37,760 nt of DNA from a virus: IMG/VR virus record IMGVR_UViG_3300027806_000082, positions 1-37,760 of that record. One strand, written 5' to 3'. Made by a program: the position numbers and the translations under genes. The notes beneath the pieces are model-generated. The model did not search any database. It was not told the DNA's origin and was given only the letters and a program-made list of their open reading frames with translations. Numbering within the stretch: the first letter of the stretch is position 1; every line of letters starts with the position of its first letter. Shown here piece by piece: positions 1,967 through 20,971 of this stretch.

Positions 1967-2668
1967 TTATGGACAACATCCACAATTAGGAACTAATTGT
2001 GCATTAACATACCATATTGCTGGCGTGTCACACGCACAAGCATTTGGCCAATATGGTAAAGATTGAATAGACTGGATAATTTCTGGTGGAAATCCAAATG
2101 TATTAATATTTGATGAAGTAATCATAATAGGATTAAATGGACCAATTCTACATGGAAAATTGAATACAGTAGATTGCCACTTAGATGAACAATTAGTAGC
2201 TGGTAAATCTGAATTACATGTTATCTGCCAATTTAAATTTTCATTAATGCATCCTGGTACTTGTCCATTATATATCCATTTATAATTAGATATCTTAGTC
2301 CAAGTAATGGGGATAGATTTCCAAATCTTTTGGCCATTACATATGATATCGAAAAATATGTTTCCAATACCATTCCATTCACAACAACTACAATCTGTCG
2401 TATCTATAGTACAATCTGTAGTATTAAGTTCTGAAAAAATTGGTATTGTTTTGCGTTCTGCTATTAATCCTACAGGCTCAAGAGTTAAACAGGTAACTAC
2501 TGGCATACATTGATCAATTCCAATCCACTGTAAACCAGAATTTTTAGCATGTCCTACAACTTGGTTTCGTTCTTGATCCCACCCTGGTACTAATTCTATA
2601 GGTTGGTTAAAATATCTATAATTCGGAAATATTTGTGGAAAAATTCCAGATGGACATGGTGTACTCAT
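1967..2668 (-). CDS. Cys-rich tail-tip-cluster protein (long paralogue)
   Basis: The protein is 233 aa with 17 cysteines (7%) and many Trp, Pro and Asn, no signal peptide and no membrane segment. The N-terminal part (residues about 4-95: PNYRYFNQPIELVPGWD, HAKNSGLQW, CMPVVTC, LIAERKTIPI) is clearly paralogous to the gene just upstream (2692-3027). The C-terminal ~135 residues (CCEWNGIGNIFFDIIC ... ending CGCCP) are absent from that paralogue. It is the last gene of the structural operon, directly after the giant tip protein, so a surface-exposed virion part such as a small tail-tip or adhesin subunit is likely. The cysteines may form metal sites or disulfides after lysis. No strong ribosome-binding site is seen, so translation may depend on the upstream gene. 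I do not recognise the family. Confidence 0.6.
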   Translation of the reverse strand: MSTPCPSGIFPQIFPNYRYFNQPIELVPGWDQERNQVVGHAKNSGLQWIGIDQCMPVVTCLTLEPVGLIAERKTIPIFSELNTTDCTIDTTDCSCCEWNGIGNIFFDIICNGQKIWKSIPITWTKISNYKWIYNGQVPGCINENLNWQITCNSDLPATNCSSKWQSTVFNFPCRIGPFNPIMITSSNINTFGFPPEIIQSIQSLPYWPNACACDTPAIWYVNAQLVPNCGCCP

Positions 2669-2691
2669 ATTTTTTATTATAATTAACTAGG

Positions 2692-3027
2692 TTATGGGCT
2701 TGGTGATGGACTTGGTGATGGACTTGGTAAGCATTCTGTTACATTAATATTGCAACTTATTTCATCAAAGTCTGTAATAATACTTATATTCCTACGTTCT
2801 GCAATCAATTTTCCGCTTAATACATCTAGTTTAATACATGTAACCACTGGTAGGCATACTACTTCTACCCACACTAAGCCAGAATCTTTTGCATGAACTA
2901 AAACTTGATCTTTTAATGGATCCCATCCTGGTATTAATTCTATAGATTGATTAAAATATCTATAATTTGGTGATGTTTGTGGAAATATATTAGACGGACA
3001 TGGACTTGAGCTTGGTGTTGTACTCAT
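2692..3027 (-). CDS. Short paralogue of the Cys-rich protein, ending in a Ser-Pro repeat
   Basis: The protein is 111 aa. Residues about 8-97 align with the first ~95 residues of the downstream 233-aa protein (shared PNYRYFNQ, IEL.PGWD, HAK.SGL.W, PVVTC, LIAER). Instead of the second domain it ends with ECL followed by five Pro-Ser/Ser-Pro units and a stop. The nucleotide sequence around the PNYRYFNQ region is also very similar between the two (compare 2590-2640 with 2929-2980), so the duplication looks recent. The start codon overlaps the TGA of the 2038-aa gene (ATGA), with AGGAG about ten bases upstream. The product is probably a virion tip component. The repeat tail could be a flexible spacer. 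An alternative reading is a decaying duplicate whose C-terminal domain was replaced by slippage. Confidence 0.6.
   Translation of the reverse strand: MSTTPSSSPCPSNIFPQTSPNYRYFNQSIELIPGWDPLKDQVLVHAKDSGLVWVEVVCLPVVTCIKLDVLSGKLIAERRNISIITDFDEISCNINVTECLPSPSPSPSPSP
2699..2728. repeat. 12-bp tandem repeat encoding a Ser-Pro tail
   Basis: The unit CTTGGTGATGGA is present about 2.5 times in perfect tandem. On the minus strand it encodes alternating Ser and Pro at the extreme C-terminus of the 111-aa protein. Related GGTGATGG-type segments occur in other tail genes (near 7075, 9080, 11940 and 24950). The array is short and could change length by slippage. Confidence 0.85.
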
Positions 3028-6000
3028 GATTTCAGCGCTCCTGGAGGATCTCCTGTACCTATAATAATATAATTATAATTTGCATTATTTGCATTAACGC
3101 CAGTATATACTCTTTGTATTGTGACATGGTCTCCTGCCATAGCTCCATAACCCATAGGATTACTGACTTTCGTTAGTAGATTAGGTATAGGATCTCTTGA
3201 TTTGCCATCACAGGTAGCATACAGAGCGCTTATTGCTATAACAGCAGATGTTTGGGTAGGAGAGAATTTAGCTATTGCTTGACCAGTAATTATAACTGGA
3301 GCTTCTTGTGCATATATGATCTTATATTTGCAATTTTTTACCTCTGGATCTAAAGTTTCATCCCATATACCAGTTATTATACCTGATTGATAGGTCATCC
3401 ATTGTTGATTGTCTGTCATATCAATGATAGGTTTTTCAATAGCCATATCAAGATACTCATCCTCAAAACGTAAACCTAGCATAAAATCATCTTCTTTTTT
3501 AATTTCTCTATCAGTCCTTGGTACCCCGCCAGGAAAACCAAATAAGCCGGGCTTGCTAGCATCATTAACCCTTTGTATAACTCTAGCTACAGTTCCACCA
3601 TTGTCTACACTATATTCTGGATCGCCATTCTCATCTAAATTTTTAAAATAAACAGTAACTGATGAACCTTGGATGAATAATCCTTTTTCCATCCATTCGT
3701 CTCTATTAAATACTTTTGTTTTTTCTAGATTACTTAAACTTCTACTAGTATCCCACATAAATCCTTCATACCATTCAACTTTCATATAGGGATTAGGAGG
3801 ACCATCAATGTTAATATACATAGGTACAGTAGTATCAGATCTATTTAATTCATCAGCCGCACCATAATCTAGAAAAGTTATTTTACCTTCTGGTGCAAAC
3901 TTAACGGTTTCTGTGATTTTATAAACTAAATTAGTTGTACTAGATAAATATGTATCTAGCATGGCTGTAAATTCACATCCGTCAATATTCTCGTAAGTAC
4001 TATCAGTAGCTCCAACTACTAAATCTCCACCTATTGGTGGTAGACCGCTACCAAAAAATATTGGATATCTTACTATTAAATCGCCTTTTGGTAATTCAGA
4101 CGTTTCTCTAGCTACTGGAACAATACCATCACTATATCCTAATCCTTTAGTTGGTAATTTGGTACCTAAATAATATTTATCATTATTTAAACCAAATGAA
4201 GGAGTCTTAGTACAAATTTTACCTTTAACATATTGCGCAAAATGTTCTAGTGTGAACATCTCGTAAGTGGTTACATCTTCATCTTCCTCATTAGGTAGAA
4301 TTCTTTGTAGTGCAAACCCTACGAATGGTGGTACGTATATAGTTCCACTTAATGATTCTAATGGAATACCATTATAGTGTTCATCGAGAATATCCGAACC
4401 TAATGCTGGACCAAATGCTGTTAAATTAGGTCCCAAACTACCATTATTGGGTACTGGGGCGTACTGCGATCTACTTACATATGGATCTCTAATTACAATA
4501 GTTGCTCCACTAAAATTATCTTGTTCTGTAATTAAATTACCTTTTCTATCTAAGGGTCTGGACCACTGATCCACCAATACGCCAGATACTGTAATATCGG
4601 TTATATTCTTATCTTGCATCAAAGCAAATTTAACTACTTTATCTTCTTTTTTTAATGATTGCCATATATGATATTTTTTAGTTCTTTCATCAAAAATGGT
4701 TAAAACTTTATCTCCAGATTTTAATTTAATGAATGGATTTTGTTCTTCAGGAGTATCTCTAAATGGATCAAATACTCTCACTGAAAGTCGGTTGTAGTCA
4801 GAGTCTAGATATATTGGTGTCTGTCCATTTGGACTATCTCCATAACAGATTATCCCAGTAATTGCTGCATTACCATCTGGATTATCTATTTTATATTGTT
4901 CTGATGACGGTGGAGGAGAACCACTTGGTAAATATAAATCTTCTGACAAAAAACCTTCTAGAAATCTAGCATAGCTCTCTATAAATAGTATATCATATTT
5001 ACTCATATCAGAACATGAATTATTCATTTTGCAATGTGGCTTTAGGCCAAGAGAGCATTCGGATGCAGCGCTTAATGAATATTTATAGTTTGATGATCCA
5101 ATAATTTTGATTTGTAATGAAGAGCAATCTGATGTAATATCAAAAGTGGAACAACCAGTGGTCTCTGTGCCTCCCCATTTTTCGTTATATGGGAAAATAT
5201 TCTGAAATTGATCATCTCCTATAAAACCAGTATCTACTAATAACTCATCATTACATAAAATTTGAAATCTAAGAGGATCTACAATACCATTTTGAGCGCT
5301 AGATATAATTTCGTAATTAAATTTAATACTATAATCACCCGGAATTATAATTGTATGATCATTTGTAATACCAGGAAAATCACCCCGACCTTCAGCATCG
5401 GCTGGATCAATCTCTGTTAAATTACCAGACGATGGAGGTATATATACAGCATAACCAGTGGATGCTTCGTTTTTCCATTGTTGCTCATCCTCAAATCTAC
5501 CAAATGAAGGACCAAATTTACCAGCATTGTCTAATAGTTGTATTAGCCATTTTGATGGTTCTTCTTTAATAAGGTCGATGGTAAACGTCTCGTTAGGCGA
5601 ATTGCCTTCTGAATCTATTGGATTACCATCACAATCTATTCTTATACCAAAAGTATGATGGTTATAATATTTATCACCATATCCAGCATGTGCCCCCCAT
5701 GTTTCAACACCATAATAATCTTCTGGCTTTTCAGTTTGATCATCTACTATATTACAAATATTAATATTTCTAAATCTAATAATATTAGTAACTGGTGTTG
5801 GTGTGCTATCTTGAACAGAGTTAAGCACAATATATCTATTGTCATCATAATAAACATAAATATTAGTACATGCATCTATAGTTTGTCCTAAGAAATCATA
5901 TACAAAGATTTCTGTTTGATCCATATTAAGCTTAATATTCTCGCCATTTGGCCCAGAGATATGATATTTTTCATAAAAATTAATATCATCAGCTTTAGGA

Positions 6001-9000
6001 TTAATTAATTCAGCTTTGGCCTTACCATTAGGATTTAATTTTTCTTTTAATCTAGCAACTATAATTTTATTTGGTGATGGACAAGTCCAAACTCCACGCT
6101 CTCTGTCAAATCTTAAATCAATAGGTCCAACCGGCCATGATCTTGGATTTGATAGCCAGCCTGTTTGAAATTTGTCTGTTAGTTGATCTTTTCTAAACTG
6201 GCCTAGCTCGGTATTAATTGCGGCATCAGCGCTGTTAGGAATTGGTTTACCGGTTGTATCATAACCCCAACCCTGTAATACTAAAGGTCCTCTTAAAGCA
6301 GGAATTCTGAAGTTATTGATTTGTTGTCTAATAGCCTCATCTGTATCATATATATTTATACTACCAGGTATAGCATCATATGTATTTGTATGTGTAATTT
6401 GATATTCAGCATAAGTATCGCCAAATACTATAGAAGACATCACAAAACCTTTTTGTGTATTATTTTTGCGAGCATCCCATGGCTCATAACCTTGAGATGT
6501 ATCCTCTGCAAATAGCATAGCTCTAGTAGTATATGGATTTAAATATCTTTGATTAATTGGTAATAAATAACAATTTGATCCTTGTGACGATGATGTTTTA
6601 AACTTAAATGGAGGTATTTCATCTCTTGTTTTTGATGCTATAGGATAGCCAGATTTGTCATAATTAGTAAAATCATCAATATCTGTTTTACTATCCCATT
6701 CAATAAATTTACCATTAAAATTACATCTCATAGCAAATCTAGGTAATCTAGCTTTATTTTTCCAACTACTATTACTAGTAAATTTATTTATTGAACTTTT
6801 ATTAAATTCTTTATTATCTTTAGGATTATCTCCTACTCCTCTTAATGAGACAGGAGAATAAAATCCATCCATACTCATACCAGCTAATTGAAAATAAGTA
6901 TTTTGTAAATACTCTATAGAGTACGCTTCGGTACTTTCCGCAAAAATATATCTTCGACGATCTTCACTACCATCAAAATTTGGTGGAACGCTACCATTAA
7001 TACCATAATTAGGCACACCGCTAGGGTCGCATGATGCGTCTGGAGGAAAAGACGTTTCTGGACTAGGATAAATTGATGGACTTGGTAATGGTGTTAATTG
7101 TGACTCTGGTATTAAATAATATCCAGAAAATATTAATCTATTGGGTGTGGAATGTTTATGTTTAGTTAATGGGGTAAAATAATATTGCTTTTCTATAAGT
7201 TTTTTATTATAGTCTTTTTTAATAGTTTGTACTTTATTTTGCTCATTTCTTAAATAACTATTAATGTATTGACTATTTTTGATATTGTCTTGCCAATTGT
7301 CTAATAAATATTTTTCTGTTTTACCAAGTCTAGGAGAATAAGTAGAAAAATTATATGTGGTTGTAAAACCACCGCTACCAAAGTCTACATTAATATCTGT
7401 TAAAAGTGTTGGTCCGCTACCTTTTGTGGGATCATATCCGACATCCACAGATTTTCCAAGTTTATGACATGGTAATCCCGCTGCTGTAACTCTACCCTTT
7501 TCTAATTTTTGTAATCCTTTTGGTGCTAATTTAGCTAAATTTTTACCAAAACTATCCATAGCACAATATGGATAAGTACCTGGGAATGAGGTGTCGTTAG
7601 CTTTAATAAAATTCCAAGGAGCTATATTTTCTTGTATAATTAATTCGGCACCACCGCCTTCTTCAGTAGTTGGATCTCCCGCATAATAATATGGACCATA
7701 TCTATATACATTGCTTTTAAGAGGTATTACTACTCCTTGTGGTATAAGGCATGGAGGTTCAGTTTTAGCTAAATTTAATTGAGAAGAATTGCCTCTAGCT
7801 CCATCTAAAACAATATTATTATTATTTTTAAAATAATTATAATAATTTACTATGCTTTGTTTTGGATTTCCATCTATTTCAGGATGGTTATTGCGATTAG
7901 TCATATTTAATAAATAAGAAAATAAAACTACACCACCAATAACATTACTATCAATTGATGTTAGTGGTACTTTTTCAGATAGCGTGATCTTAATCCAAGT
8001 GCCTTCACTATTAACATAAAATCTGTTTTCGATATTACTTTTTAAATATAAATAATTATTATCTATATAATAATTACTAATATCTAATTTAGTTAAATCT
8101 ATATTCCAGTCTACACAACGCTCAGTATTATTACCAGCATCATAAGTAGTAAATTTTTTATATAAATAGTGAGTTGTTAATTCAGGACATGATGCGTCAC
8201 TACCACCACTAATTTTACCAACTTTAACAAATGATTCTATTTTACCATCATTATTTTGCACCCAATTAATATTGGTTAATCCTAATATATCTGATGTTCC
8301 CTTTTTTGGAAAACCACCATCAGCAATTTCATCACTGGTATAAAATCCTTGAGATGCTCCGTTACCTTCTATATAAAATGCTTTAGGGTCGTTAATATTA
8401 AATTGTGGATTATCTCCTTGCTCATTTTTAATACAGATACCTGGAAAAGTTGAATTCGGATCACTACCTTTAGGATCCGCTATTTTGACTAAAAATTCAC
8501 GACCATAATAAGTATCATGAATATTTTTAATCCACTCATAACATACTCTTAATTTTTCTATTCTTTGATTTAGTTTAACAGCATCGCATTCAGTAATGGT
8601 TACATTTGTTAATTTGGGTTCAGCATCATCTCCACCAAATATAGTTTTCAAAACGCTATAAATAGATTGAGTATCTGCATATCTATTAAACGATACCCAC
8701 ATTTTTGCTGCTTCTTGCTTAAATTTAGCCATATCTATATTTATAGCCGCGTCTCTCATACATTCTATAGAGAATGGTGCCGGATTTTGACTTAAAACGC
8801 CATCAGAAGCTGTTATATAATAACTACCAAATAATATCCATGACTCAAAAGAACCTGTACTCAATAATTCAGCTTCAGATAATGTAAATTCTGTTAGATT
8901 CTTTAAAATATTTGACTTTTTAAGTATAGAGCACGAGAACTGAGGTATTGTGAATCCTTTTTGGATAAAATCCTTGTCTACTGTTGAAGTGTAAAATAAT

Positions 9001-9140
9001 TTATCTAATTGTCCTGGAGCTATAGCTCCTGGCGATTCTTCATAACCAAAAAACATTCTTATACGACCACATTCTGGTGAAGGTGATGGTATTGGATTAC
9101 AAGACGGTAACGGTAATGGATCGCAATTACAATCTGACAT
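3024..9140 (-). CDS. Giant tail-tip / baseplate-type structural protein
   Basis: The protein is 2038 aa from the ATG at 9140, chosen because an AGGA ribosome-binding site lies just upstream. An in-frame ATG at 9173 would add 11 residues inside the previous gene. The N-terminus (MSDCNCDPLPLPSCNP...) has four Cys in a Pro-Ser-rich arm. More Pro-Ser hinges occur near residues 677-694 and 1403-1413, splitting the protein into at least three blocks. The first ~250 residues (for example CYEWIKNIHDTYYGREFLVKI) look like a hub-associated part. Around residues 1250-1350 a β-sandwich-like stretch (IIIPGDYSIKFNYEI) resembles carbohydrate-binding modules in texture. No enzyme motif was found. Position after the tape measure and distal-tail genes fits a central tip protein, analogous in place to lambda gpJ or Tal proteins. 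Exact homology is not recognised. Confidence 0.7.
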   Translation of the reverse strand: MSDCNCDPLPLPSCNPIPSPSPECGRIRMFFGYEESPGAIAPGQLDKLFYTSTVDKDFIQKGFTIPQFSCSILKKSNILKNLTEFTLSEAELLSTGSFESWILFGSYYITASDGVLSQNPAPFSIECMRDAAINIDMAKFKQEAAKMWVSFNRYADTQSIYSVLKTIFGGDDAEPKLTNVTITECDAVKLNQRIEKLRVCYEWIKNIHDTYYGREFLVKIADPKGSDPNSTFPGICIKNEQGDNPQFNINDPKAFYIEGNGASQGFYTSDEIADGGFPKKGTSDILGLTNINWVQNNDGKIESFVKVGKISGGSDASCPELTTHYLYKKFTTYDAGNNTERCVDWNIDLTKLDISNYYIDNNYLYLKSNIENRFYVNSEGTWIKITLSEKVPLTSIDSNVIGGVVLFSYLLNMTNRNNHPEIDGNPKQSIVNYYNYFKNNNNIVLDGARGNSSQLNLAKTEPPCLIPQGVVIPLKSNVYRYGPYYYAGDPTTEEGGGAELIIQENIAPWNFIKANDTSFPGTYPYCAMDSFGKNLAKLAPKGLQKLEKGRVTAAGLPCHKLGKSVDVGYDPTKGSGPTLLTDINVDFGSGGFTTTYNFSTYSPRLGKTEKYLLDNWQDNIKNSQYINSYLRNEQNKVQTIKKDYNKKLIEKQYYFTPLTKHKHSTPNRLIFSGYYLIPESQLTPLPSPSIYPSPETSFPPDASCDPSGVPNYGINGSVPPNFDGSEDRRRYIFAESTEAYSIEYLQNTYFQLAGMSMDGFYSPVSLRGVGDNPKDNKEFNKSSINKFTSNSSWKNKARLPRFAMRCNFNGKFIEWDSKTDIDDFTNYDKSGYPIASKTRDEIPPFKFKTSSSQGSNCYLLPINQRYLNPYTTRAMLFAEDTSQGYEPWDARKNNTQKGFVMSSIVFGDTYAEYQITHTNTYDAIPGSINIYDTDEAIRQQINNFRIPALRGPLVLQGWGYDTTGKPIPNSADAAINTELGQFRKDQLTDKFQTGWLSNPRSWPVGPIDLRFDRERGVWTCPSPNKIIVARLKEKLNPNGKAKAELINPKADDINFYEKYHISGPNGENIKLNMDQTEIFVYDFLGQTIDACTNIYVYYDDNRYIVLNSVQDSTPTPVTNIIRFRNINICNIVDDQTEKPEDYYGVETWGAHAGYGDKYYNHHTFGIRIDCDGNPIDSEGNSPNETFTIDLIKEEPSKWLIQLLDNAGKFGPSFGRFEDEQQWKNEASTGYAVYIPPSSGNLTEIDPADAEGRGDFPGITNDHTIIIPGDYSIKFNYEIISSAQNGIVDPLRFQILCNDELLVDTGFIGDDQFQNIFPYNEKWGGTETTGCSTFDITSDCSSLQIKIIGSSNYKYSLSAASECSLGLKPHCKMNNSCSDMSKYDILFIESYARFLEGFLSEDLYLPSGSPPPSSEQYKIDNPDGNAAITGIICYGDSPNGQTPIYLDSDYNRLSVRVFDPFRDTPEEQNPFIKLKSGDKVLTIFDERTKKYHIWQSLKKEDKVVKFALMQDKNITDITVSGVLVDQWSRPLDRKGNLITEQDNFSGATIVIRDPYVSRSQYAPVPNNGSLGPNLTAFGPALGSDILDEHYNGIPLESLSGTIYVPPFVGFALQRILPNEEDEDVTTYEMFTLEHFAQYVKGKICTKTPSFGLNNDKYYLGTKLPTKGLGYSDGIVPVARETSELPKGDLIVRYPIFFGSGLPPIGGDLVVGATDSTYENIDGCEFTAMLDTYLSSTTNLVYKITETVKFAPEGKITFLDYGAADELNRSDTTVPMYINIDGPPNPYMKVEWYEGFMWDTSRSLSNLEKTKVFNRDEWMEKGLFIQGSSVTVYFKNLDENGDPEYSVDNGGTVARVIQRVNDASKPGLFGFPGGVPRTDREIKKEDDFMLGLRFEDEYLDMAIEKPIIDMTDNQQWMTYQSGIITGIWDETLDPEVKNCKYKIIYAQEAPVIITGQAIAKFSPTQTSAVIAISALYATCDGKSRDPIPNLLTKVSNPMGYGAMAGDHVTIQRVYTGVNANNANYNYIIIGTGDPPGALKS

Positions 9141-9154
9141 AATAATTTCCTGCT

Positions 9155-10327
9155 TTATGGTGTCGATGAACACTCTGGTGATGGGGGCGATTCTGCATCA
9201 ATAGGGACATCAGTATCTCTAGTCACTAATTTAGAATATGGAGGATTCACAATATTACATTGAGTTGAAACTGGAGAAATATATTCACACGGAGGCGAAA
9301 AGCTTGGTTCTGGTTCGTCTATTGTGGTTAAGTAATGAAAATAATCTCCAAAAACTAAACGTTTATTTTTTTCATATGTCATTTCCTGACCATATTCTTT
9401 AGTCATAGCAATATCGTCTATACTGAATTGATTAATAAATGTTAGTAATGGAGTATTATTAATTGGTTTTGTATAGTCAACTGGAATAATTTCCAATTCA
9501 TTATCTTCAGTAATATCAATAAAAAAATCATGACCAACTTCTTCACACGCTAATTCAATTAAATCTAATAGTGACATTTCATCATTAGAAGTTCTATAAT
9601 TATCTGGTATGATATTTATTAATCTATCTAATTTTAATTTCAGGCATACTTTAGATATTGGAATTTGTATTTGTTTACCGTTTAACTCAGTTAGCGCCTT
9701 TTTTAAAAATATACCTTTATAGTTAGCCCCAGATTTCATAAAATCTTTACATTTTTCAATACCGTCACAATCATCAATGGATGGTTCTAAGAAATATAAA
9801 GTGTTTAATACTGTATGTTCAAGTTGTGATGGTGGTCTATCATAAATAGTATTAAGAATTATAGTGATTTTAGATAATAAATTTCTACCATCACTCAATG
9901 TTAATCTATATTTATATCCACCATTGTCTTCACTATAAGTATGATTACTTAAGATTCCACGAAAACAAAAATTACCCATAATAAAAGTATATATATAACC
10001 TAGTCTTCCATCATAAGGTAATAAATTTGGTCCTGGCGGACATAATGGCGAACAACCAGATGGAGCACATTCTTCCTTAAAACTTAGTAAGTCTACATTA
10101 ACAGTAGATTCTGATCCACCAATACCTAATTTACTACTAAAACCTAAAATAAAACAATTTAAAAATTTAGTTTGTATATTTTGATTAGTAAAATAATCTG
10201 CACATCCACTAGCACCACATCCGTTTGGATCATAGCCACAAATAAAACAATCGCTTGATGAAGGACAAGGATCGGTATTACAAGGATCAGTTTCAAATGT
10301 TTGGAACGGAAATTCAAATGTAGACAT
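9155..10327 (-). CDS. Cys-rich distal tail / hub-like protein
   Basis: The protein is 390 aa with 18 Cys. Residues 16-42 hold six Cys in a DPC..DPCPSSSDCFICG..NGC..SGC arrangement that looks like a metal site or disulfide knot. The body (about 45-340) is compact and β-rich, with YDGRLGYIYTFIMG, ISKVCLKLKL and LLDLIELACEEVGHDFFIDI...LEIIPVDY. That texture recalls gp27/gpD-like hub domains, which combine β-barrels with a helix. The C-terminus is a Pro-Ser-Cys tail. Its 3' end overlaps the earlier of two possible starts of the giant tip gene; the two proteins may together form a hub. No clear ribosome-binding site is visible: the start codon sits only two bases from the preceding stop, so coupled translation is likely. 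Assignment rests mainly on order. Confidence 0.6.
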   Translation of the reverse strand: MSTFEFPFQTFETDPCNTDPCPSSSDCFICGYDPNGCGASGCADYFTNQNIQTKFLNCFILGFSSKLGIGGSESTVNVDLLSFKEECAPSGCSPLCPPGPNLLPYDGRLGYIYTFIMGNFCFRGILSNHTYSEDNGGYKYRLTLSDGRNLLSKITIILNTIYDRPPSQLEHTVLNTLYFLEPSIDDCDGIEKCKDFMKSGANYKGIFLKKALTELNGKQIQIPISKVCLKLKLDRLINIIPDNYRTSNDEMSLLDLIELACEEVGHDFFIDITEDNELEIIPVDYTKPINNTPLLTFINQFSIDDIAMTKEYGQEMTYEKNKRLVFGDYFHYLTTIDEPEPSFSPPCEYISPVSTQCNIVNPPYSKLVTRDTDVPIDAESPPSPECSSTP

Positions 10328-10329
10328 AT

Positions 10330-11451
10330 TTATACATTATGCACGTAAGTAGTGTCGTTGGTATGAACGCGAGCGGTCTTGGTGAGATTTTGCTGCTTAA
10401 TAATATAATCTCCACAAATCATATCATTTAATACAACATATCCAGTGTTAGAATTATAAGTAAAATTATTCGGTCCTGTTATTTGTATTGGTATAGTGGA
10501 ATCTAAATTAATCATAAGATTGCCAAATCCTGGCTTGGGTTGTGTTTTTTCGTAAAATTGTGGTAATTGGGGAATATTATATTTATCAATTATATTTGGT
10601 TGAATTTGCGGAATATTAATTTCAAAACAGTCCTTATTCCAAGAATTATTATTTAACTTCGTAATTAGTACTGGTCCATTCCTATCTATTATTTTAATAG
10701 AATATTGTCCCGATTGCAAATTTTGAATTGTTATTTTTTTGCTATTAACTAAATATCCACTATTATTTAAATATATTTGATATTCTATATTATCAGATAC
10801 ACCATCAATATCTATACTTATAGATCCCAATGGAAAATTTTGCCTATATAATGGCCTAATAAACTTATTGCTATAGATACCGTCGCTATTAATAGCTTGA
10901 ATACTATTAAAATTTTTATTATCTAAAATATTTACTATAGTAGTATTTTTATTAGCTGCATAATAATTAAATTTATTTAAAATATCTATAATTGATAGTT
11001 TATATTGTTTTGTATCAATATTAAGTATAATATTTTCTTTTATATTAAATTCATATTTATAATTATCTGATAAAATTAATAAACCAATAATTAATTTAGC
11101 TGATGACTGCATATTTATAGTTAAAGATAAGGGTATGGTAATATCGTTTAGTATGATAGAATAAGAGTGACCATTTTTAATCTTTAATCCATTAGCTATA
11201 TAAAAATAATAATAGTTTTGGTATCCAAGATTTATATCTCCACAATTAATTACTACTGTTTGTGTATATTTTTTTTGGGTAGTTTGGTCTATAATAATAA
11301 TTTGATCTCCAATATTAATATTAAAATTAGATAGCAAATTTTTAGGAATCAAAATAGTATTATGTAGATTCATAATTTCGTAAAATATAGGCGGATTTAA
11401 TTTAGTGTAATCGCCCTTAATACTAAAGTCCACATTTATTCCTGAGAGCAT
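10330..11451 (-). CDS. Ig-like / SprB-repeat-like tail structural protein, extremely AT-rich
   Basis: The protein is 373 aa, dominated by Ile, Asn, Tyr and Leu. Two β-sandwich-like units are visible: residues about 205-260 (GSISIDIDGVSDNIEYQIY ... IQNLQSGQYSIKII) and about 310-360 (IPIQITGPNNFTY ... YVVLNDMICGDYIIK). The pattern of ITGPNNFTY, then a linker, then GDYIIK resembles SprB-type or Cna-like surface modules. One sampled line (10981-11040) is only 13% GC, well below its neighbours. A good AAGGA ribosome-binding site precedes the ATG. Lying between two tail genes in one operon, it is probably a virion accessory such as a tip decoration or fibre, but no specific family is recognised. 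Confidence 0.5.
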   Translation of the reverse strand: MLSGINVDFSIKGDYTKLNPPIFYEIMNLHNTILIPKNLLSNFNINIGDQIIIIDQTTQKKYTQTVVINCGDINLGYQNYYYFYIANGLKIKNGHSYSIILNDITIPLSLTINMQSSAKLIIGLLILSDNYKYEFNIKENIILNIDTKQYKLSIIDILNKFNYYAANKNTTIVNILDNKNFNSIQAINSDGIYSNKFIRPLYRQNFPLGSISIDIDGVSDNIEYQIYLNNSGYLVNSKKITIQNLQSGQYSIKIIDRNGPVLITKLNNNSWNKDCFEINIPQIQPNIIDKYNIPQLPQFYEKTQPKPGFGNLMINLDSTIPIQITGPNNFTYNSNTGYVVLNDMICGDYIIKQQNLTKTARVHTNDTTYVHNV

Positions 11452-11461
11452 ATCTTTTCCT

Positions 11462-13243
11462 TTATGGGCAAGATGGTTTTACATATGACATATTAAGTCT
11501 AAATACGTTATTACCTATTGTTTCTTGATCATTTACTTTGAACCAACAATCTAAATTTATATTATTATCATTTTGTAAGTCTTGTAAAACTTTTTCCGCA
11601 CAAGCTCTCAATTCTTGAATAGTAGATTGAGACATATTAAAGTTGCAACTATTCTTATTGAGTGTGGCAGTTACGGCTATATCATATTTTTCAGCTGACT
11701 TACAACATAGATTTTGAATAAGTACACCCTTATCTCCTCGTCCAGGTATTATAAATTCTACTATATTATCTCTTGGTTTATCATGTGTAATTTCTACATC
11801 AACTTTTTTAGCTCCTAATATATTACAATTTGCTTTATTAGATAATACAAATGTAAAGTTAATTTCACCTTGAGATAAATTTCTATTAATTTGTGAACTA
11901 ACTAATCTAAGATCACATAATTCGGGTGTAGTTGGAGATGGTGATGGAGATGCCGATGAACACGGATCACTAGTAGCGCTCAAGGCACAATTATCTTTTA
12001 TATAACCACGATTAGCAACACTATCAAAAAAACCCTCACTATTATAATAATAATTAGCAATACTTTTTAAATTTTCTTCTTTAGCAAATCTTGTTAAAAA
12101 ATTATTAGCATTACCAATTTTTTCATTTAGATTACAATTAGTAATTGTATTGTCTGATATACCAGCTGACATTTTAATAATTTTATCAAAATTATTATCA
12201 ACTAATCCTTGTATATTGCCCGTTAATGTAATAGTTTCTCCTTCTCCATCCAAACTTTGTTCCACATTAAGAGTTGTAAATACTTTATCTTCAGGTCCAC
12301 TAGAACATCCACTCGGCCTATATATAATTTCACCAGTAACGCTAATACTATTTTCTATAGGATTAATATCAATAGTTCTAAAATCTAATAGAGATATTCC
12401 TCCTGTATATGTTGCAAAAGCGGTGGTCAATTCAGATGTTGGAGGATTAAATACTCCAGCAATATTTATATCTCGTAATTTTTCAATTCTGTCACGAATA
12501 TATGTTTCAGCAGCTGCTAATCCATATGTGTGTCCTGTTTCTGTACTTCCACCATTACAATCCGTTAAGCCCCTAATACCACCAGCGCTTATACTAAAAT
12601 TAGTCTTAATATGTCTATTACCCCAGCCCTTAAAATCTGACCATTGAGACATTGGGACAGGATAACTGCCACCAGACCAGTTGAATGTATCATCATTGAT
12701 GCTAACAGAAAATTGTTCTGATAAATTATTAAGCATTAATCCATTTAAAATAGATGATGAGCTGCCCGATGATTCTATTTTACCAGGATATGCTGGACGT
12801 TCACCAAAAGATAATCCAATATCATTAGTATAAAGATCAATTTCAATAGTATATGGAGCCATATTAACCCATGTAGGCATATTCCCTTCACTAATATTTA
12901 ATGAAGTGATTCTTCCATAACCTTTAATAATTGTACTATCACATTTAATTTCTACATAAACACATTCTCTATATTGTCCTATTTGTAATATATCTTTTAA
13001 GCCAGTAACCCCACCAGCACCAGTAGTTACTACTTCATTAAAACTACTACCAACAACACTACCATTAAGAGTTACTTTGAGTACGCCTCCTATAGTTAAA
13101 TCTCCAGCCTTATATTTTTCTAAAGCTATATTTAAGAATGGAGAAGGTATTAATTGCTTACCTCCAACCATTACAGAAGCCCCAGCATTACTAGGACCGC
13201 CACCAGAAAAAATTGTAGATACATCGCATGTTGAAGTTGGCAT
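11462..13243 (-). CDS. Distal-tail structural protein with Ser-Pro hinge
   Basis: The protein is 593 aa, encoded immediately after the tape measure, where distal tail proteins lie in siphoviruses. Residues about 1-420 are β-rich with GGKQLIPSPFLNIALEKY near the start, LNGSVVG and GYGRITSLNISEG. A Cys-Pro-Ser hinge (DPCSSASPSPSP, residues about 423-436) leads to a second domain of about 155 residues with CCKSAEKYDIAVTAT and a SCP end. The hinge suggests two separately folded parts, one in the tail ring and one exposed. A TAGGAT ribosome-binding site lies inside the end of the tape-measure gene. No enzymatic motif is seen. Role is from position and texture; an exact Dit homologue is not claimed. 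Confidence 0.6.
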   Translation of the reverse strand: MPTSTCDVSTIFSGGGPSNAGASVMVGGKQLIPSPFLNIALEKYKAGDLTIGGVLKVTLNGSVVGSSFNEVVTTGAGGVTGLKDILQIGQYRECVYVEIKCDSTIIKGYGRITSLNISEGNMPTWVNMAPYTIEIDLYTNDIGLSFGERPAYPGKIESSGSSSSILNGLMLNNLSEQFSVSINDDTFNWSGGSYPVPMSQWSDFKGWGNRHIKTNFSISAGGIRGLTDCNGGSTETGHTYGLAAAETYIRDRIEKLRDINIAGVFNPPTSELTTAFATYTGGISLLDFRTIDINPIENSISVTGEIIYRPSGCSSGPEDKVFTTLNVEQSLDGEGETITLTGNIQGLVDNNFDKIIKMSAGISDNTITNCNLNEKIGNANNFLTRFAKEENLKSIANYYYNSEGFFDSVANRGYIKDNCALSATSDPCSSASPSPSPTTPELCDLRLVSSQINRNLSQGEINFTFVLSNKANCNILGAKKVDVEITHDKPRDNIVEFIIPGRGDKGVLIQNLCCKSAEKYDIAVTATLNKNSCNFNMSQSTIQELRACAEKVLQDLQNDNNINLDCWFKVNDQETIGNNVFRLNMSYVKPSCP

Positions 13244-13249
13244 AATATT

Positions 13250-16200
13250 TTATCCTAAAAGAGCTTTCATGATAGTTTCTTTCATCACTGGTATTACTTT
13301 ATCATAAATATTTTGTACTAATTGAGTATCTCTATTTGGATTATTCTGAATATTAACATCCAAAGTATCATTAAGATTTAGATTAACATCTCCAGTATAA
13401 GAATGAGAAATACTAGCCTTAATTTCTTTATTAAATTCTACACTAAATCTATTTAGTGTTTCACTTAGTTTTTCAGCAGTAGTTTTAAAGATGCTCATAT
13501 TTGTTGACAAGTCTTGCATTGGTTGAATAATAGCATTCGTAGATGCACTAAACTTATCTATTGTTTGATCGAATATTTGACTTGATGGAGTATTACGATT
13601 ACGTTGTAGATTATAAATATCTCCAGGTGGTGGAGGAGCAACAGTTGGAGATCTAGACCCATTATTTCTTTCCGCATCTCTTAATGCTTTTTCCATTTGT
13701 CCTTGAATTTGTTCACTCATTGACTGTGCAGCTTTATTAATATTTATTTTTCTTGCCGCGGCTTCAAGTTCATCTCTTAAAGACTTTATTTGTTCGGCTG
13801 CTGTTCGACCAGCCTCTGTTGTAGTATCTAATTCAAATAAAGCCCTGTTTAAAGCTCTGATTTGATCAGTTGCTGTTTGGGCTGATCCAAAATCACTTGT
13901 AACAGTTTTTGCTTGTTCTTTAGATAAGGCTCCTGGAGTTAGAATAAAATCAACTTCTGCTATCCCAAAGTTTTTAACTGTTGGCTGGCTAATTTTAGAT
14001 AAAATATCTGATAATGGTTGAGCAAATTCTGCCAATGCTGGTATTGGTTGCTGCCTACTAATAAGTTTTTGTTCACTAGCTCTAGTTTGAGCTTCAATTC
14101 TTTGAATATTCTCTATTATTGCGGGAAATAGTCCTGTAAGTTCTAGATTAAAGTTATTGAATATTCTGGTAGTTTCTTGTTGGGAAGTTTCCATTTGTGT
14201 TAATAATGATGCTTCAATGGCCTCTCCAGCAATTCTTCTTTGTTGTTGTCCAGCAGCAACAGCCAGCCCTGGAGCATTTGGGAAAATTGTAGATAAATAT
14301 GGTTTGAATGCTTCTGGTAAATAAGAACCAATAATATCTCCAATATTTCTACCTTCAGCAAATAATTCACCAAGAACTTGAACTTGTGCTCTACGCTCAG
14401 CTTCATTAGTAGGTCTAGCGGTACCAACTACAAACCTAGCTGCTCTGGCTACTAGTCCTCTAATTTCTGCATCGCTTACTCCTCTAGCTTTTAAGAATCT
14501 TGTACCTTCGGTTCTAAATAATCTAGCTTGTGCAGCATCTGTGAATCTATTAGTTTGTGCCGCATTAATAGACTCTATGGTTTGTTGTAATTTAATAAAT
14601 TGTTCTGGATTTTCTGCCGCATCTAAAAATTCAAATAATAATTCTGTACTAGTATCAAATTTATTTTGTGCCTCTGCTATCTTATCAAGAGCGTTTTTGG
14701 TTTTTTCTCCACTAGTAGCAATAGTATTTAATGCTTGATTCAATCTTGCTATAGCAGATATTTCTTTTTCATATAAATTTTTGAGTGGCGCTTTGGCTTT
14801 TATATCTGCTTGATTCTTTTTTATATTTTCATCTAAACTTTGAGCTATTTGTCTACGCTTATTTAATTCTGCTACTATTACTCTAGGATCTGTGGTACCA
14901 GCTTGTGGAATACCTCCTCCAATATTCTTAGTTAATTGTTGAATAGCAATATCGAAAGGCTTATTAAGATCAGATAAAGAAGCTGTAACTCCTAGTAATC
15001 TATTTAATTCATTAGCCTCTTGAGCCTCTAATTGTAATCTTTGTGTTGTAGATTCAATTAATTTACTTTCTAGATCCAATCTAAATTTTATTTGTTCATT
15101 TAATTTATCTTCAATTTTAGCAGTAGCTTCTATTATTTCTGAATATGCCTTTTGTGATTTTTCGGATGTTTTTAATAATGCGGATAATGCTGCATTATTT
15201 TGAATTAATTCATTAACACTATTAATTGATTCTTTATTTCCATCCAAAGTACTATTAACACTAGCTGCTAGTTCATTGAATATTTTTTTAAGTACTCCAC
15301 CTTCATTAGTAATTCTACTTAATGATGGTCCTAATTTTTCTTCTAGTTGATCTCTTAAAGCATCTCCAGCTCTACCTTGTGGAGAAGATTGTATTTCTTT
15401 TAATACGGCTGGCAATTCTTGTTGTATAACACGAGCAGCTTCTACTTGACTTCTTAATTCTTCAAATAGTTTTTGTTGTTCTGGCGAAGATCCTTGAATA
15501 TTTAACAAGCCAGAAACTGTACTAGATACAGCGCTTAAATCTTCTGCACTAGCGCCGCTCAAATTATTGAGTACACCTATTTGTCTTCTTAAGACTTCTC
15601 CACCCTGAATTCTTGGTTCTCCACCAAGAATAGATAACCTTCTTTCTAAGTCATCAAACTGATCCATAGTTTTACCAAGAGACATTTCTACACGACCAGC
15701 TAATGTTACTAAAACATTATCCAGAGTTACTAAACTTAATTTAAATTTATTATTAGCATTAGTTAATTCTCTTAATGCTGCTATCTCTACGTTTTTAGCA
15801 CCAACATAATTCTCAACAACTCTTTTTACAGCATCACTGTTTGCTCCCCCAAGAGCAAAGAATTGTCTTTCTGCTTCTGCTGTAGTAATATCTCCAGTTT
15901 CAGTTTTTGCTCTTACAAATTGACGCTGTATAAAATCTTTGGTAGTTTCATCAAATATTCTATTGAAGTTACCCAAATTATTACGTTGACTATCTACAAG
16001 TTCTTGCATAGTGGACATGTCGCTAAATGGAATACCTTCAGCCACTAGTCTACTCTTTAATAATGTTCTAAATGTGAAGTTTAATTCATTGATAGCTCCT
16101 ATTTGTGGAGTACGACCAACTTCTGTTCTTAAAGACTCTCCAGTGAATCCTCTATTTTTAAGTTGAGTAAACTGTGGTAAAATTTTATCCACAAAAGTAG

Positions 16201-19200
16201 CGTTAGCTAAACTAAAAGCTTGAGAATTTTTAGTAGCTTCATCTAAATTCTTATATAATCTATCTAATTGTTCACTACTCTTTTTTAATCCACTATTAAA
16301 AGCTCCAAATAATTGAACTCCTACTTCTATAACAGTAATTGCAGCTCCAACCCACGGAATAAGATTCTTGAATGCTCCCAATAACTGTGCCGCAACACCA
16401 GGAGCTGCAACTTGTACTGGACCTGCTACATTTGCTGGTAGACGCACAGCATTATATGCTGCGGTAACTGATGCTGCTTTATTAGCAGCATTACTTAATG
16501 CTGTAATAGCTGTAACGCTAGTTAATATAGTTAAAGTAATATCATTAATAGCTGAACCAAAATTATTCGCTATTTCTAAACTATCAATCTCTCCCTTAGT
16601 GCTTTGTACAGAAGCATCTAATTCCGTAAATGTTTTTTGTAAATCTTGCGCGGCCTGCAATCTTAATTCTTCTGTTGGAGCACTACTAATAGCTTGTACT
16701 GTTTTATCAAACTTACCAAAAATATCTACATTCTTTAATAATGCTTTTTCTAAAGCTTTACCAGTAGTATCAGTTAAAGCTCCACTAACTAATCCACTAA
16801 TAGCCGTACCAGCTTGTCCAGCAGCAACAACTCCTTTACTTGCTCCGACAGTATTTAAAGCTATGCCAGCACTTAATGTTAAACTACTAGCTTCTCTAAT
16901 AGCCCCACCCAATGCTGTACCAAACATACCTATAGTGCCATCTAATTTACCAAAACTAGATGATAATTTTTCAATTTGTGGTAAAATAACCGCTGTAATA
17001 GCAGCTATCACACCAGGAGCACCTCCTATCATATCTACAGCACCACCTTGGGCATATCCTACAACTCCACCCTTATTAAAACCTTGTACTTTATCAGCTT
17101 TATTTAGTCTATTTAAATTACCATAACCAATTCTTTTTGCTGCTTTTTTATTAAATACAAATTCACCAGGAGTTAAGAGAGCTGGAACAGTATCTTCTTC
17201 GGAAACTGAACCACCCATAGCAAATCTACTTAATGCTAAATTTGCCTTACCCATAGGAGTTTTAAAATATCTTTCAATTTGAGCTATAAATTTAGTAGCA
17301 TCTTTACCTCCTGGACCAATAGTTCTAGTAATATCTGTTGGTATATTTGTAAAAGCAGATCCAAATATTTTAGATGCTGACTTTAATCCTGTGGGAAAAT
17401 CAATAGATTTCGTATCCTCATCCTTTGAGGTTAATGGAGCACCAAGTATATTTAAAGCAGACTCTAGACCCGCGCCAACAACATTATAAAAACCAGCATT
17501 TTCAATAGATTTTTGGATAAGGCTAGAATTATCACTAACAGAAGCACCAAGACCAGACTCAGAAGACAAGCTTTTAGCTATATTTACTACAGAAGATTCA
17601 AATCCTGTGTATAGCATGTTTTGTAATTTTTCAGCATAGTCCTTGCCTAATTGACTACTAATAGTGCTAGTAATAATTTTAATAAATTTTTGTTGGGGCT
17701 CATCTGCTGTACCAACATTTATTCCTCTAATATTTTGATAATCTTTTGATGAAAATGCGGGTGGAACTTCAACAGGAAAAGTACCTAAAGACGATTCTCC
17801 TTTAGCTCCAGAACCATATCTTAATCCAACTAAACCAAATGTCATAATTTTATTAGCCAGACCTTGTTGACCTCTAGTAATATCTTCAGTAACAGCTTGC
17901 TGTTTACCTAATAATGCTTGGGTTTGTAAAGCTTGTTTAGCTTCTGATACCGCTACACTTTTTTGGGTTAGTTTATCTTGCGCTTGTTTTATTTTTGTTA
18001 TATCCAAACCACTATTTAATGCATTTTTATTATTTTTTCTAATATCATTTGGCGTTACTATTCTTGGTATTGATTGACCCTTGTTTGAGCCTTGTTTAAG
18101 AACAATAGGATTAGGAGCAGTTATATTGCCATTATCGTCCACAATATCATTTCCAAATATGCTCTTAAGTATATCGCTATCTTTTAGTGGCGCTAGTACT
18201 CCCTTACTTGTGGAGCCTTCCTTAAATTTTTGTACATATCCACCTCTGGCGAATTCTTGTACTAGTCCACTTTTTAAAAGTTGATTGATTGTTTCTGTAA
18301 ATGCAGTAGCGTGTCCTGGCTTAGCTGCTACGCCTCCACTAATAAAACTATCAAAATATTGTAAAGCCGTATTTGCTTTTGCTACTTTTTGTGGTTCACT
18401 ATCTCCTAATGATGCTATATATTTTGGTATAGCTAATTTAATTTTTTCAGCTGAATTTCCTGGAAATACTCCAGCTAAACTAGTTTTACCACCGCTTTGT
18501 CTAAAAGAAGATAACGGATTTTTAATAGTATCTAATAGTGTAGAAGTAGCACTAGCCGTTTCTGCTTTCATACGAGGAATAGCAGCTAGTGATAAGCCGT
18601 AGTCACTAATAACTTGTTCTAATTCTGGAGCATATTCAGCTTTCTTTTCTTTAGATAGTGCGCTAGCGGGAGACATAATTCCCTGAGCAGCAGCCATCAA
18701 TAATTCTCGTCCTCTATCAAAAAATCTTTCTCTTCTTTTTTGTGTATCTGATTTTGGTGCTTTGGTTGCTATTTGTGATCCAAATGGAGCAATTTTTTCT
18801 CTAAAAAATCCTTTCTTTCCATCTGGACCAATGGTTAAATCTTTCTCAAGATCAGCAGTAATTTTAGATTCTGGTACTTCAATAAATTCTCTACCAATAG
18901 CGATACCGCTACCTCCAGTAGTCATTATATCATATGCTTGTGCTTTAGCATATTTAATAAAATCTTCGGTAGAAAGACGATCAACTTCTTCGGGAGATAA
19001 TTCAATAAATTTACTACGAGCGCCTCTGCGTCTTTTAACTCCTCTTCCTTTAGTACCATCTTTAAATTTTTGAACTTCTCCACCACTATTCATTCTAGCT
19101 AAATTTTCAATACCAATAGCTTGCACTGCACTTTTACGAATAACAAATTCACCAGGAGTTAAATTTGCTCTAAATGTATCGCTATTACCACTACCAGGAA

Positions 19201-20971
19201 CTAAGCCTCCACTAGCAAAACCTCTGACTGGTCTATTTAATAATAAGCTATTAGTATTAACTATGTTTTGATTTAAAGCTAATATAGATTGATTTAATAA
19301 TGTTAATGTTTGCCCAAGAGTATTTAAAGATGAAGTATTAGCTGATAATGCTGCTGCGCCAGTACCTCCACCGCCTCTAGTTCCACCGCCGCCACCTCCG
19401 CCTCCTGATGGAGTAATACCACCACCTCCGGCTGGACCTCCGCCTCCGAATAAACCTGTTTTAAATCCTGAAAAATATTCAGTTAAAGCTCCTCCAACCT
19501 TAATGCTTGCAAATGTTAATAAAAGAGGTAATATTGGTTTTAATGCTCTAGCTAAATTAATAAAAGAATCAGCTAATGTTAAAGATACCGTCACGAAAGC
19601 TTTAAATGATGTACTATCTCCAATCTCTCTTACTAATGCAAGGAAATTCTCTCTAGTGCGAGCAAACTGCACAGCTAAAGATTGTTGGGCCACTAATGCG
19701 TCCTTTGCTGTTGATGTAGAACCCTTTTGGGCTACTGCTAAGGCTTGTTCAGTAACGGCAAATTGTTGAATTAATGGAATAACCTTACCAATTTGTCTAA
19801 ATCCACCAAGTTCTTCTGTAATTGTAGCAAATTCTGCTGTTCTTGGATCTATCTTGCTTAAGCCTTCGCTTAATCTTCTAGTAGCCTCAAATAATCCAAT
19901 AAATTTACCTTCTGTGTCCTGAAGCTCGATACCAAATTCTCTTAATTGTTCAATTGTTTTGGTTCTTTGAATTCTAGTAAAAATAGTTCTTAAACCAGTT
20001 GCAATTGTTTCTGCACTTTCACGAGTAGTAGCACGAACACTAGTAAAGATAGCAATAAATTCATTTAATGCATCTGTTCCCTGACTGACACCCCTACTAG
20101 CAGAAGCAAACACACCACCAGTACGCTGAATCGCAGCAATAATATCGCTAGCTTCAACAGCAAATGCAGCAGCAACAGCATTGATACTACCTAATGCTGA
20201 ATCTAGTTCTTTAGACTGCAAACCAAACTGTCTTAATGCTGCAATAGCTCCTTCTGTAGTATCTGTTAAACTATCAAATGATGGAGCGAGTGCAGATTTA
20301 GCCAATGCTTCCAAAGCTATTTTAGTATCCTCTGCTGATAAACCAGCCTGTGCTAAAGTTGTAGCAACGGTTAATAAGTCAGAAGACGCTACACCAAGAC
20401 TAGTAGACAATCTAGTGATCTCTTTACTAACATCACCCAATTCGGACACTGATTTTCCGGTAACTTGTGATAATCTTACAATTTCTTGATTAAATTTAAA
20501 AAATTCCTTAAATGCACTATCAAAAGCATTGACTAATCCATAAACTATAGTTGTAACAGTACTAAATGCTGCAAATCTTTTAATAGCCAAACCTGATTGC
20601 TTGCCGAATTCTTCTACTTGAGTACGAGTTTGAGAAATAGATTTACCAGCAGACGATACTGCTCTACTAGTTTTAGCTATACTATTTACATTGGCTGTTG
20701 CTGCTGAATTAATATTATTAAGTGACGCAACCATTGCGCCAAGTGATATATTTAAATTACTAATATTTGTATTAGCACTAATTGCGGCTTTAGATAGATT
20801 GTTTAGTCGAGTAGTAATTGATGTTATGCTTTTAGCTGCATTTTGATTAACATCTAGATTTAGTTTAATTTTAGCATTATTAATATCCTTTTGTATTTTA
20901 GATACAATAGGTTTAATATTGGCTGGGCCTCTTAAATTAATTTGAGCTGTTAGATTAAATGCTGCTGCCAT
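13250..20971 (-). CDS. Tail tape measure protein
   Basis: The protein is 2573 aa, among the longest class of tape measures. It sets tail length and leaves through the tail with the DNA. Residues about 130-420 match the phage tail minor protein domain (PhageMin_Tail type: FNQEIVRLSQVTGKSVSELG, AAAFAVEASDIIAAIQ, TIATGLRTIFTRIQR). A Gly-rich linker lies near 510-535. Two copies of the tape-measure motif GG-x-V...TPGEFV(I/F)xKxA...IG follow near 595-625 and 1260-1295. Hydrophobic stretches near 475-490, 1310-1330 and 1530-1560 could be membrane-active. The C-terminal half is long coiled-coil-like helix. The start ATG has GGAG seven bases upstream and follows a terminator-like hairpin. Several long antisense ORFs lie inside it and are ignored. 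Confidence 0.95.
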   Translation of the reverse strand: MAAAFNLTAQINLRGPANIKPIVSKIQKDINNAKIKLNLDVNQNAAKSITSITTRLNNLSKAAISANTNISNLNISLGAMVASLNNINSAATANVNSIAKTSRAVSSAGKSISQTRTQVEEFGKQSGLAIKRFAAFSTVTTIVYGLVNAFDSAFKEFFKFNQEIVRLSQVTGKSVSELGDVSKEITRLSTSLGVASSDLLTVATTLAQAGLSAEDTKIALEALAKSALAPSFDSLTDTTEGAIAALRQFGLQSKELDSALGSINAVAAAFAVEASDIIAAIQRTGGVFASASRGVSQGTDALNEFIAIFTSVRATTRESAETIATGLRTIFTRIQRTKTIEQLREFGIELQDTEGKFIGLFEATRRLSEGLSKIDPRTAEFATITEELGGFRQIGKVIPLIQQFAVTEQALAVAQKGSTSTAKDALVAQQSLAVQFARTRENFLALVREIGDSTSFKAFVTVSLTLADSFINLARALKPILPLLLTFASIKVGGALTEYFSGFKTGLFGGGGPAGGGGITPSGGGGGGGGTRGGGGTGAAALSANTSSLNTLGQTLTLLNQSILALNQNIVNTNSLLLNRPVRGFASGGLVPGSGNSDTFRANLTPGEFVIRKSAVQAIGIENLARMNSGGEVQKFKDGTKGRGVKRRRGARSKFIELSPEEVDRLSTEDFIKYAKAQAYDIMTTGGSGIAIGREFIEVPESKITADLEKDLTIGPDGKKGFFREKIAPFGSQIATKAPKSDTQKRRERFFDRGRELLMAAAQGIMSPASALSKEKKAEYAPELEQVISDYGLSLAAIPRMKAETASATSTLLDTIKNPLSSFRQSGGKTSLAGVFPGNSAEKIKLAIPKYIASLGDSEPQKVAKANTALQYFDSFISGGVAAKPGHATAFTETINQLLKSGLVQEFARGGYVQKFKEGSTSKGVLAPLKDSDILKSIFGNDIVDDNGNITAPNPIVLKQGSNKGQSIPRIVTPNDIRKNNKNALNSGLDITKIKQAQDKLTQKSVAVSEAKQALQTQALLGKQQAVTEDITRGQQGLANKIMTFGLVGLRYGSGAKGESSLGTFPVEVPPAFSSKDYQNIRGINVGTADEPQQKFIKIITSTISSQLGKDYAEKLQNMLYTGFESSVVNIAKSLSSESGLGASVSDNSSLIQKSIENAGFYNVVGAGLESALNILGAPLTSKDEDTKSIDFPTGLKSASKIFGSAFTNIPTDITRTIGPGGKDATKFIAQIERYFKTPMGKANLALSRFAMGGSVSEEDTVPALLTPGEFVFNKKAAKRIGYGNLNRLNKADKVQGFNKGGVVGYAQGGAVDMIGGAPGVIAAITAVILPQIEKLSSSFGKLDGTIGMFGTALGGAIREASSLTLSAGIALNTVGASKGVVAAGQAGTAISGLVSGALTDTTGKALEKALLKNVDIFGKFDKTVQAISSAPTEELRLQAAQDLQKTFTELDASVQSTKGEIDSLEIANNFGSAINDITLTILTSVTAITALSNAANKAASVTAAYNAVRLPANVAGPVQVAAPGVAAQLLGAFKNLIPWVGAAITVIEVGVQLFGAFNSGLKKSSEQLDRLYKNLDEATKNSQAFSLANATFVDKILPQFTQLKNRGFTGESLRTEVGRTPQIGAINELNFTFRTLLKSRLVAEGIPFSDMSTMQELVDSQRNNLGNFNRIFDETTKDFIQRQFVRAKTETGDITTAEAERQFFALGGANSDAVKRVVENYVGAKNVEIAALRELTNANNKFKLSLVTLDNVLVTLAGRVEMSLGKTMDQFDDLERRLSILGGEPRIQGGEVLRRQIGVLNNLSGASAEDLSAVSSTVSGLLNIQGSSPEQQKLFEELRSQVEAARVIQQELPAVLKEIQSSPQGRAGDALRDQLEEKLGPSLSRITNEGGVLKKIFNELAASVNSTLDGNKESINSVNELIQNNAALSALLKTSEKSQKAYSEIIEATAKIEDKLNEQIKFRLDLESKLIESTTQRLQLEAQEANELNRLLGVTASLSDLNKPFDIAIQQLTKNIGGGIPQAGTTDPRVIVAELNKRRQIAQSLDENIKKNQADIKAKAPLKNLYEKEISAIARLNQALNTIATSGEKTKNALDKIAEAQNKFDTSTELLFEFLDAAENPEQFIKLQQTIESINAAQTNRFTDAAQARLFRTEGTRFLKARGVSDAEIRGLVARAARFVVGTARPTNEAERRAQVQVLGELFAEGRNIGDIIGSYLPEAFKPYLSTIFPNAPGLAVAAGQQQRRIAGEAIEASLLTQMETSQQETTRIFNNFNLELTGLFPAIIENIQRIEAQTRASEQKLISRQQPIPALAEFAQPLSDILSKISQPTVKNFGIAEVDFILTPGALSKEQAKTVTSDFGSAQTATDQIRALNRALFELDTTTEAGRTAAEQIKSLRDELEAAARKININKAAQSMSEQIQGQMEKALRDAERNNGSRSPTVAPPPPGDIYNLQRNRNTPSSQIFDQTIDKFSASTNAIIQPMQDLSTNMSIFKTTAEKLSETLNRFSVEFNKEIKASISHSYTGDVNLNLNDTLDVNIQNNPNRDTQLVQNIYDKVIPVMKETIMKALLG

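Follow-up and report, generated by a model that had tools for sequence, protein, structure and literature searches.

Selected cysteine enrichment in the distal tail proteins of an uncultured phage lineage points to a probable disulfide-armoured tail tip

The distal tail of an uncultured phage, represented by a 37.8-kb IMG/VR virus record (37,760 nucleotides, analysed at full length and hereafter called the window), is built from proteins far richer in cysteine than its other structural proteins. The six products encoded past the tape measure together contain 91 Cys in 3749 residues (2.43%), against 22 Cys in 6697 residues (0.33%) for the remaining structural proteins of the window (Fisher p = 3e-22). 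Comparison with homologous loci shows a real, selected, clade-level enrichment in the tail tip of this lineage; selection is indicated both by terminal Cys that do not vary within the near clade and by an excess of N-terminal Cys in distant relatives. The reading that we favour, with moderate confidence, is a disulfide-armoured siphovirus tail tip, in which the conserved Cys would be oxidised after lysis and paired mainly within domains.

Gene order and lineage

The structural genes follow one another on the minus strand in the order terminase, major head protein, neck and tail genes, tape measure and six tip genes, the latter encoding proteins of 593, 373, 390, 2049 or 2038 (depending on the start), 111 and 233 aa with 16, 3, 18, 32, 5 and 17 Cys, respectively. 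The tip genes end opposite plus-strand genes, among them one for an HNH endonuclease. The tape measure protein (2573 aa; positions 13250-20971), which matches PF10145 (PhageMin_Tail) and tape-measure PHROGs, is devoid of Cys in the window and in all five near-clade copies, and serves as an internal control. The 283-aa gene just before it contains an array of 21/42-bp tandem repeats (21168-21284) coding for repeated GRxxxxDG-type units. The 176-aa product of a neck gene (25920-26450), for which there is no PHROG match, carries the conserved motif pair CxxC...CPYCxGxG and probably forms a zinc ribbon. The 344-aa neck-side protein (24237-25271, minus strand), which the initial annotation had credited with the pattern of the tip, shares it to the extent of two Cys (93 and 105) inside a single insertion loop; both Cys and the loop are present in L005, L007 and L012 and missing in L058 and L081.

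Ten records of the lineage gave no match to the contractile sheath family (PF04984) although the controls gave signal, which makes a siphovirus-type tail likely; the module is probably the distal tail of an uncultured, non-contractile long-tailed phage. The window terminase shares ~24% identity with its counterparts in Bacillus phages Slash and Stahl and in Microcystis phage MaeS. The 2049-, 593-, 233- and 390-aa tip proteins had no match among 50,697 phage records, and neither the near nor the distant tip families matched anything convincing in sequence searches of Pfam, PHROG and the PDB. A host search found no tail relatives in genome contigs. Terminase relatives sit in three unrelated MAGs (Alphaproteobacteria, Flavobacteriales and SAR202), and because the contigs bearing them may be phage contigs binned with those genomes, we assign no host.

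Scans recovered a contig nearly identical to the window (L001/L109) and diverged near-clade modules, namely L110/L132, L134/L138, L137/L140 (with L136/L142 alike), L139 and L141. Searching with a profile built from the distant hub/adhesin proteins gave 78 loci, some on contigs of >200 kb. The distant gene order opens with the tape measure, a fibre-like gene, a Dit-like gene (about 515-690 aa) and a hub-adhesin fusion (commonly 1680-2320 aa), a single protein corresponding to the separate 390- and 2038-aa products of the window; these are followed by a gene for a protein of ~2200-2770 aa and then often by one of 110-180 aa. In many of the loci L148-L225 this last protein has 10-11 Cys in a zinc-ribbon-like CxxC arrangement.

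Cysteine enrichment and its conservation

The non-structural proteins of the window contain 1.1% Cys, and the tail proteins of MaeS and Slash, the annotated phages with the nearest terminases, 0-1.4%, in line with the premise of the initial annotation that phage tail proteins are normally poor in Cys. That annotation had also described a run of five consecutive tail genes, four of them with Cys near one or both chain ends; the enrichment past the tape measure stands (p = 3e-22), but the genes number six and the 373-aa product is Cys-poor. The gene for this accessory tail protein (10330-11451, minus strand) evolves faster than any other in the cluster; its five homologues contain 0-3 Cys, and the protein is 39.5% identical to its L110 counterpart.

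The 593-aa protein (11462-13243, minus strand) adjoins the tape measure and appears to consist of a tube-type N-terminal part, a Pro/Ser linker (about residues 420-442) and a Cys-rich C-terminal beta domain. All 16 of its Cys are invariant in six homologues of 52-61% identity, against 29% of all columns (p = 1.5e-9), and ten of these columns switch between TGT and TGC, so silent change occurred while the Cys stayed. With the low-confidence model of this protein (pLDDT 52), the best Foldseek matches among solved structures were tail-tube and baseplate-tube proteins, baseplate chains of lactococcal phage p2 ranking lower; among viral models, four long, uninformatively named proteins preceded TP901-1-type tail and Dit proteins, the tube and Dit matches having E values of 2e-3 to 0.4. 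The protein thus looks like a member of the tail-tube/Dit type, and the model matches fit its gene position, a Dit-like gene lying right after the tape measure in near and distant modules.

The putative hub (390 aa; 9155-10327, minus strand) carries a Cys-rich N-terminal extension, and 11 of its 18 Cys are invariant in five homologues (p = 4e-4). Its AF2 model has a pLDDT of 33; the protein looks like a hub from its position and from homology to distant unannotated proteins, its profile aligning with the N-terminal region of the hub-adhesin fusion in distant modules (hhalign prob 98, E 2.6e-13). In L137 (10001-11488) and L141 (7686-9173) the hub is enlarged to 495 aa and 29 Cys by two Cys-rich insertions of the GVCC...C...C...W...C type, for which no Pfam family match was found. 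The putative adhesin (2038 aa from the start MSDCNC; 3024-9140, minus strand, in a frame open to 9173, equivalent to 2049 aa) matches the distant 1858-aa family in profile comparison (E 9e-51). It has 32 Cys, and in the part shared by four homologues 14 of 19 are invariant (p = 3e-4). Distant adhesins (A8; L123:9281-14857 and relatives) possess an invariant CPxC...CxxC set (C1439, C1442, C1486, C1489), which the adhesin of the window lacks.

The terminal 233-aa protein (1967-2668, minus strand), a tip or fibre protein, has 17 Cys (7.3%), every one of which aligns with a Cys of the L110 copy (77% identity); Pfam, PHROG and phage-record searches gave it no family match. The 111-aa protein (2692-3027, minus strand; 5 Cys) is a paralogue of its N-terminal 95 residues. 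Both genes are replaced in L137 (15343-15858, minus strand; 171 aa, 13 Cys) and L141 (13467-13946, minus strand; 159 aa, 5 Cys) by small convergent genes whose products carry an N-terminal CCC motif.

It could be argued that the Cys and the Pro/Ser runs are incidental to fast-evolving, exposed tail proteins rich in low-complexity sequence and have no redox role. The tip genes are indeed only 40-77% identical to those of L110, whereas the flanking genes are 93-98% identical, and one run, the (PS)n stretch PSPSPSPSP that closes the 111-aa protein, is encoded by a 12-bp tandem repeat. However, this reading is already disfavoured, and we regard it as very improbable, given that 16 of 16 Cys are conserved across divergent proteins, that one member of the cluster, the 373-aa protein, is Cys-poor, and that the pattern recurs in five modules.

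The recurrence of a DPC(P/S)S motif reported in the initial annotation was confirmed, with three occurrences against 0.01 expected in residue-shuffled proteins; the shorter PC(P/S)S occurs five times against 0.10 expected, and Pro/Ser runs of at least six residues are also well above the shuffled expectation. A shared DNA element behind the DPC and PSP motifs was ruled out: synonymous codons vary between occurrences, so the motif is not a copied DNA repeat. The same annotation had seen the Pro/Ser stretches as flexible hinges. They are conserved as Pro/Ser/Thr-rich spacers of varying sequence and look like ordinary flexible linkers at module boundaries. In the L137 and L141 adhesins the end past the Thr/Pro stretch is swapped for a different Cys-bearing end, the behaviour expected of such linkers.

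Cysteine content of the distant relatives

Cys make up 0.2-1.1% of the residues in the Dit-like proteins of the distant modules and about 0.6-1.3% of those in the fused hubs. Terminal Cys are kept across the near clade, whereas the distant homologues of the 593-aa protein keep its domains (435 aligned columns in profile comparison, E 1e-15) and are Cys-poor, an outcome that the initial annotation had named as refuting its proposal. As about 60 distinct distant modules retain the domains with few Cys, the simplest account is a gain in the near clade, whose Dit-like and hub proteins probably became rich in Cys in that clade specifically.

A different use of Cys is seen in a late tail gene of three distant loci (L164:22872-24779, L167:22240-23952 and L168:22177-23826), which encodes proteins of 549-635 aa with 8-8.6% Cys. 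Each of the three has Cys in the same 42 alignment columns, and the Tyr/Trp/Asn/Gly-rich loops between them (e.g. YYYGYYYGYYYY) differ in length and sequence and lie over TATTATTATGGT-type tandem DNA repeats. The arrangement is reminiscent of a scaffold braced by Cys that displays hypervariable aromatic loops. No retroelement-based diversification (RVT_1) was detected in 18 records, in which the controls gave signal.

Disulfides, staples or metal sites

Invariant terminal Cys occur in the near clade at both ends of the 593-aa protein, near the N-terminus of the 2038-aa protein and at the C-terminal end of the 390-aa protein, and some terminal Cys of the tip proteins are the sole fixed residues in an otherwise variable stretch. 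The individual terminal Cys singled out by the initial annotation in the 593- and 2038-aa proteins are thus among the conserved ones. Its description of the proteins as Cys-capped is nevertheless too strong, since Cys are no denser at the chain ends: counts in the first and last 20 residues are as expected for the 593-, 390-, 233- and 111-aa proteins, and a terminal concentration was rejected with the weak exception of the 2038-aa protein (p = 0.02). Most of the conserved Cys are interior, which makes intra-domain disulfides the simpler reading.

These observations also bear on the proposal that terminal Cys of neighbouring tip proteins staple the chains, covalently locking hub, Dit-like ring and adhesin. 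In addition to the invariant terminal Cys of the 593-, 390- and 2038-aa proteins, the proposal can draw on the distant relatives, where 49 of 60 hubs have a Cys ahead of their first conserved motif (QTLFLG; 10 expected) and 55 of 57 products of the next gene have one within their first 20 residues (16 expected), these counts coming from related sequences and hence not being independent. The odd Cys numbers of the 111- and 233-aa proteins count for stapling and against the purely intra-chain pairing of disulfides, and N-terminal Cys of phage Milano (BW2 Cys3, LP1 Cys3) are bonded across chains. Yet the chain ends show no excess density, 11 of the 60 distant hubs lack the N-terminal Cys, which is thus dispensable, and the first 20 residues are free of Cys in 56 of the 60 Dit-like proteins from distant modules. 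We judge inter-chain stapling unlikely.

Metal-bridged joints, also put forward in the initial annotation, find slight support in the sequences. CxxC, CxC and CC occur at chance frequency throughout, zinc-finger-type spacing was rejected on this basis, and the 593-aa protein contains no CxxC. Binding of Zn or of an Fe-S cluster by the tip Cys has a precedent in the lambda tip and the R4C hub, in each of which four Cys coordinate an Fe-S cluster (PMC10721106, PMC10276861), and could be served by the invariant DCxxC of the 390-aa protein (C27, C30), which lies beside C21, C37 and C42; the CPxC...CxxC set would suit it as well, but occurs in the distant adhesins and not in that of the window. Moreover, additional Cys arrive in twos rather than fours. 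Cys 193 and 398 of the 593-aa protein, 806 and 857 of the 2038-aa protein, and the pairs 121/187 and 228/261 of the 390-aa protein are gained or lost together, in comparisons of 4-6 near-clade homologues that are partly confounded by relatedness and also include single losses (in the 2038-aa protein, C14 in L110 and C127 in L141). Cys 93 and 105 of the 344-aa neck-side protein likewise come and go as a pair. The paired changes, together with the lack of CxxC and CxC enrichment, fit disulfides better than metal, and metal sites appear improbable.

Under the favoured reading of mainly intra-domain disulfides, the tip proteins would fold and assemble in the reducing cytoplasm, and lysis would expose the virion to oxidising conditions under which the bonds form, a few inter-chain bonds perhaps being added through N- and C-terminal Cys. 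Oxidised and paired outside the cell, as predicted, the Cys would harden the exposed tip, a putative stabilising function, while leaving the Cys-free parts of the lumen, such as the tape measure, unaffected. A sulfhydryl oxidase (Evr1/Alr) had no match in 18 records, in which the controls were silent too, so that its absence is not shown; thioredoxin scored above threshold in just two records, both of them distant. An elaborated version seems to us rather doubtful. In it, terminal and domain Cys would join the tip proteins covalently once the cell has lysed, and DNA could leave the virion only after contact with the host surface had led to reduction or rearrangement of these staples; in distant relatives, a Cys scaffold of the same principle would carry hypervariable aromatic loops.

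Comparison with known systems

The initial annotation had considered the cluster a candidate for an undescribed system. The principle is not new, since a disulfide-networked tail and baseplate have already been described for Agrobacterium phage Milano, whose structural proteins contain 2.1-2.4% Cys, with mapped disulfides and DTT-sensitive stability; inter-chain disulfides occur in its sheath, baseplate, neck and capsid, and N-terminal Cys are among those bonded (PMC10811340, PMC10491603). As in Milano and its relatives 7-7-1 and OLIVR4, the window combines tail structural proteins high in Cys (2.43% in the distal tail) with conservation in relatives and a probable stabilising role. Unlike the contractile Milano, it has no sheath match, its Cys enrichment does not extend beyond the distal tail (0.33% in the rest of its structural proteins) and its bonds are predicted. 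Most plausibly, the window would work by Milano's principle while standing outside the Milano group; the novelty lies in the lineage, in the protein families and in the restriction of the Cys to the tip.

Siphophage T1 likewise has disulfides in its tail, as is putatively the case here, but these connect rings of the tail tube (PMC11945409) and represent one bond type in the tube protein rather than in Dit, hub or adhesin. Functional Cys in tail-tip proteins are shared with lambda gpL and the R4C hub; however, those comprise four Cys in one domain, whereas the window has dozens over several proteins and no metal-site spacing, and no sequence relation to the gpL-type Fe-S tip was detected in Pfam, PHROG or PDB searches. 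The 593-aa protein resembles siphovirus Dit and tail-tube proteins in adjoining the tape measure and in the prominence of tube and Dit structures in its Foldseek lists, and differs from siphovirus Dit in its extra linker and Cys-rich C-terminal domain, as far as a low-confidence model can tell.

The module would be a second example, seemingly of independent origin, of a phage tail with many Cys under selection. Here they would be restricted to the exposed tip and have arisen in a single clade of a large uncultured lineage, in tip families without a Pfam, PHROG or PDB sequence relative. Its clean internal controls, namely the Cys-free tape measure, the Cys-poor 373-aa neighbour and the Cys-poor distant homologues, make it well suited for asking whether such disulfides provide environmental stability to the virion or act as a trigger.
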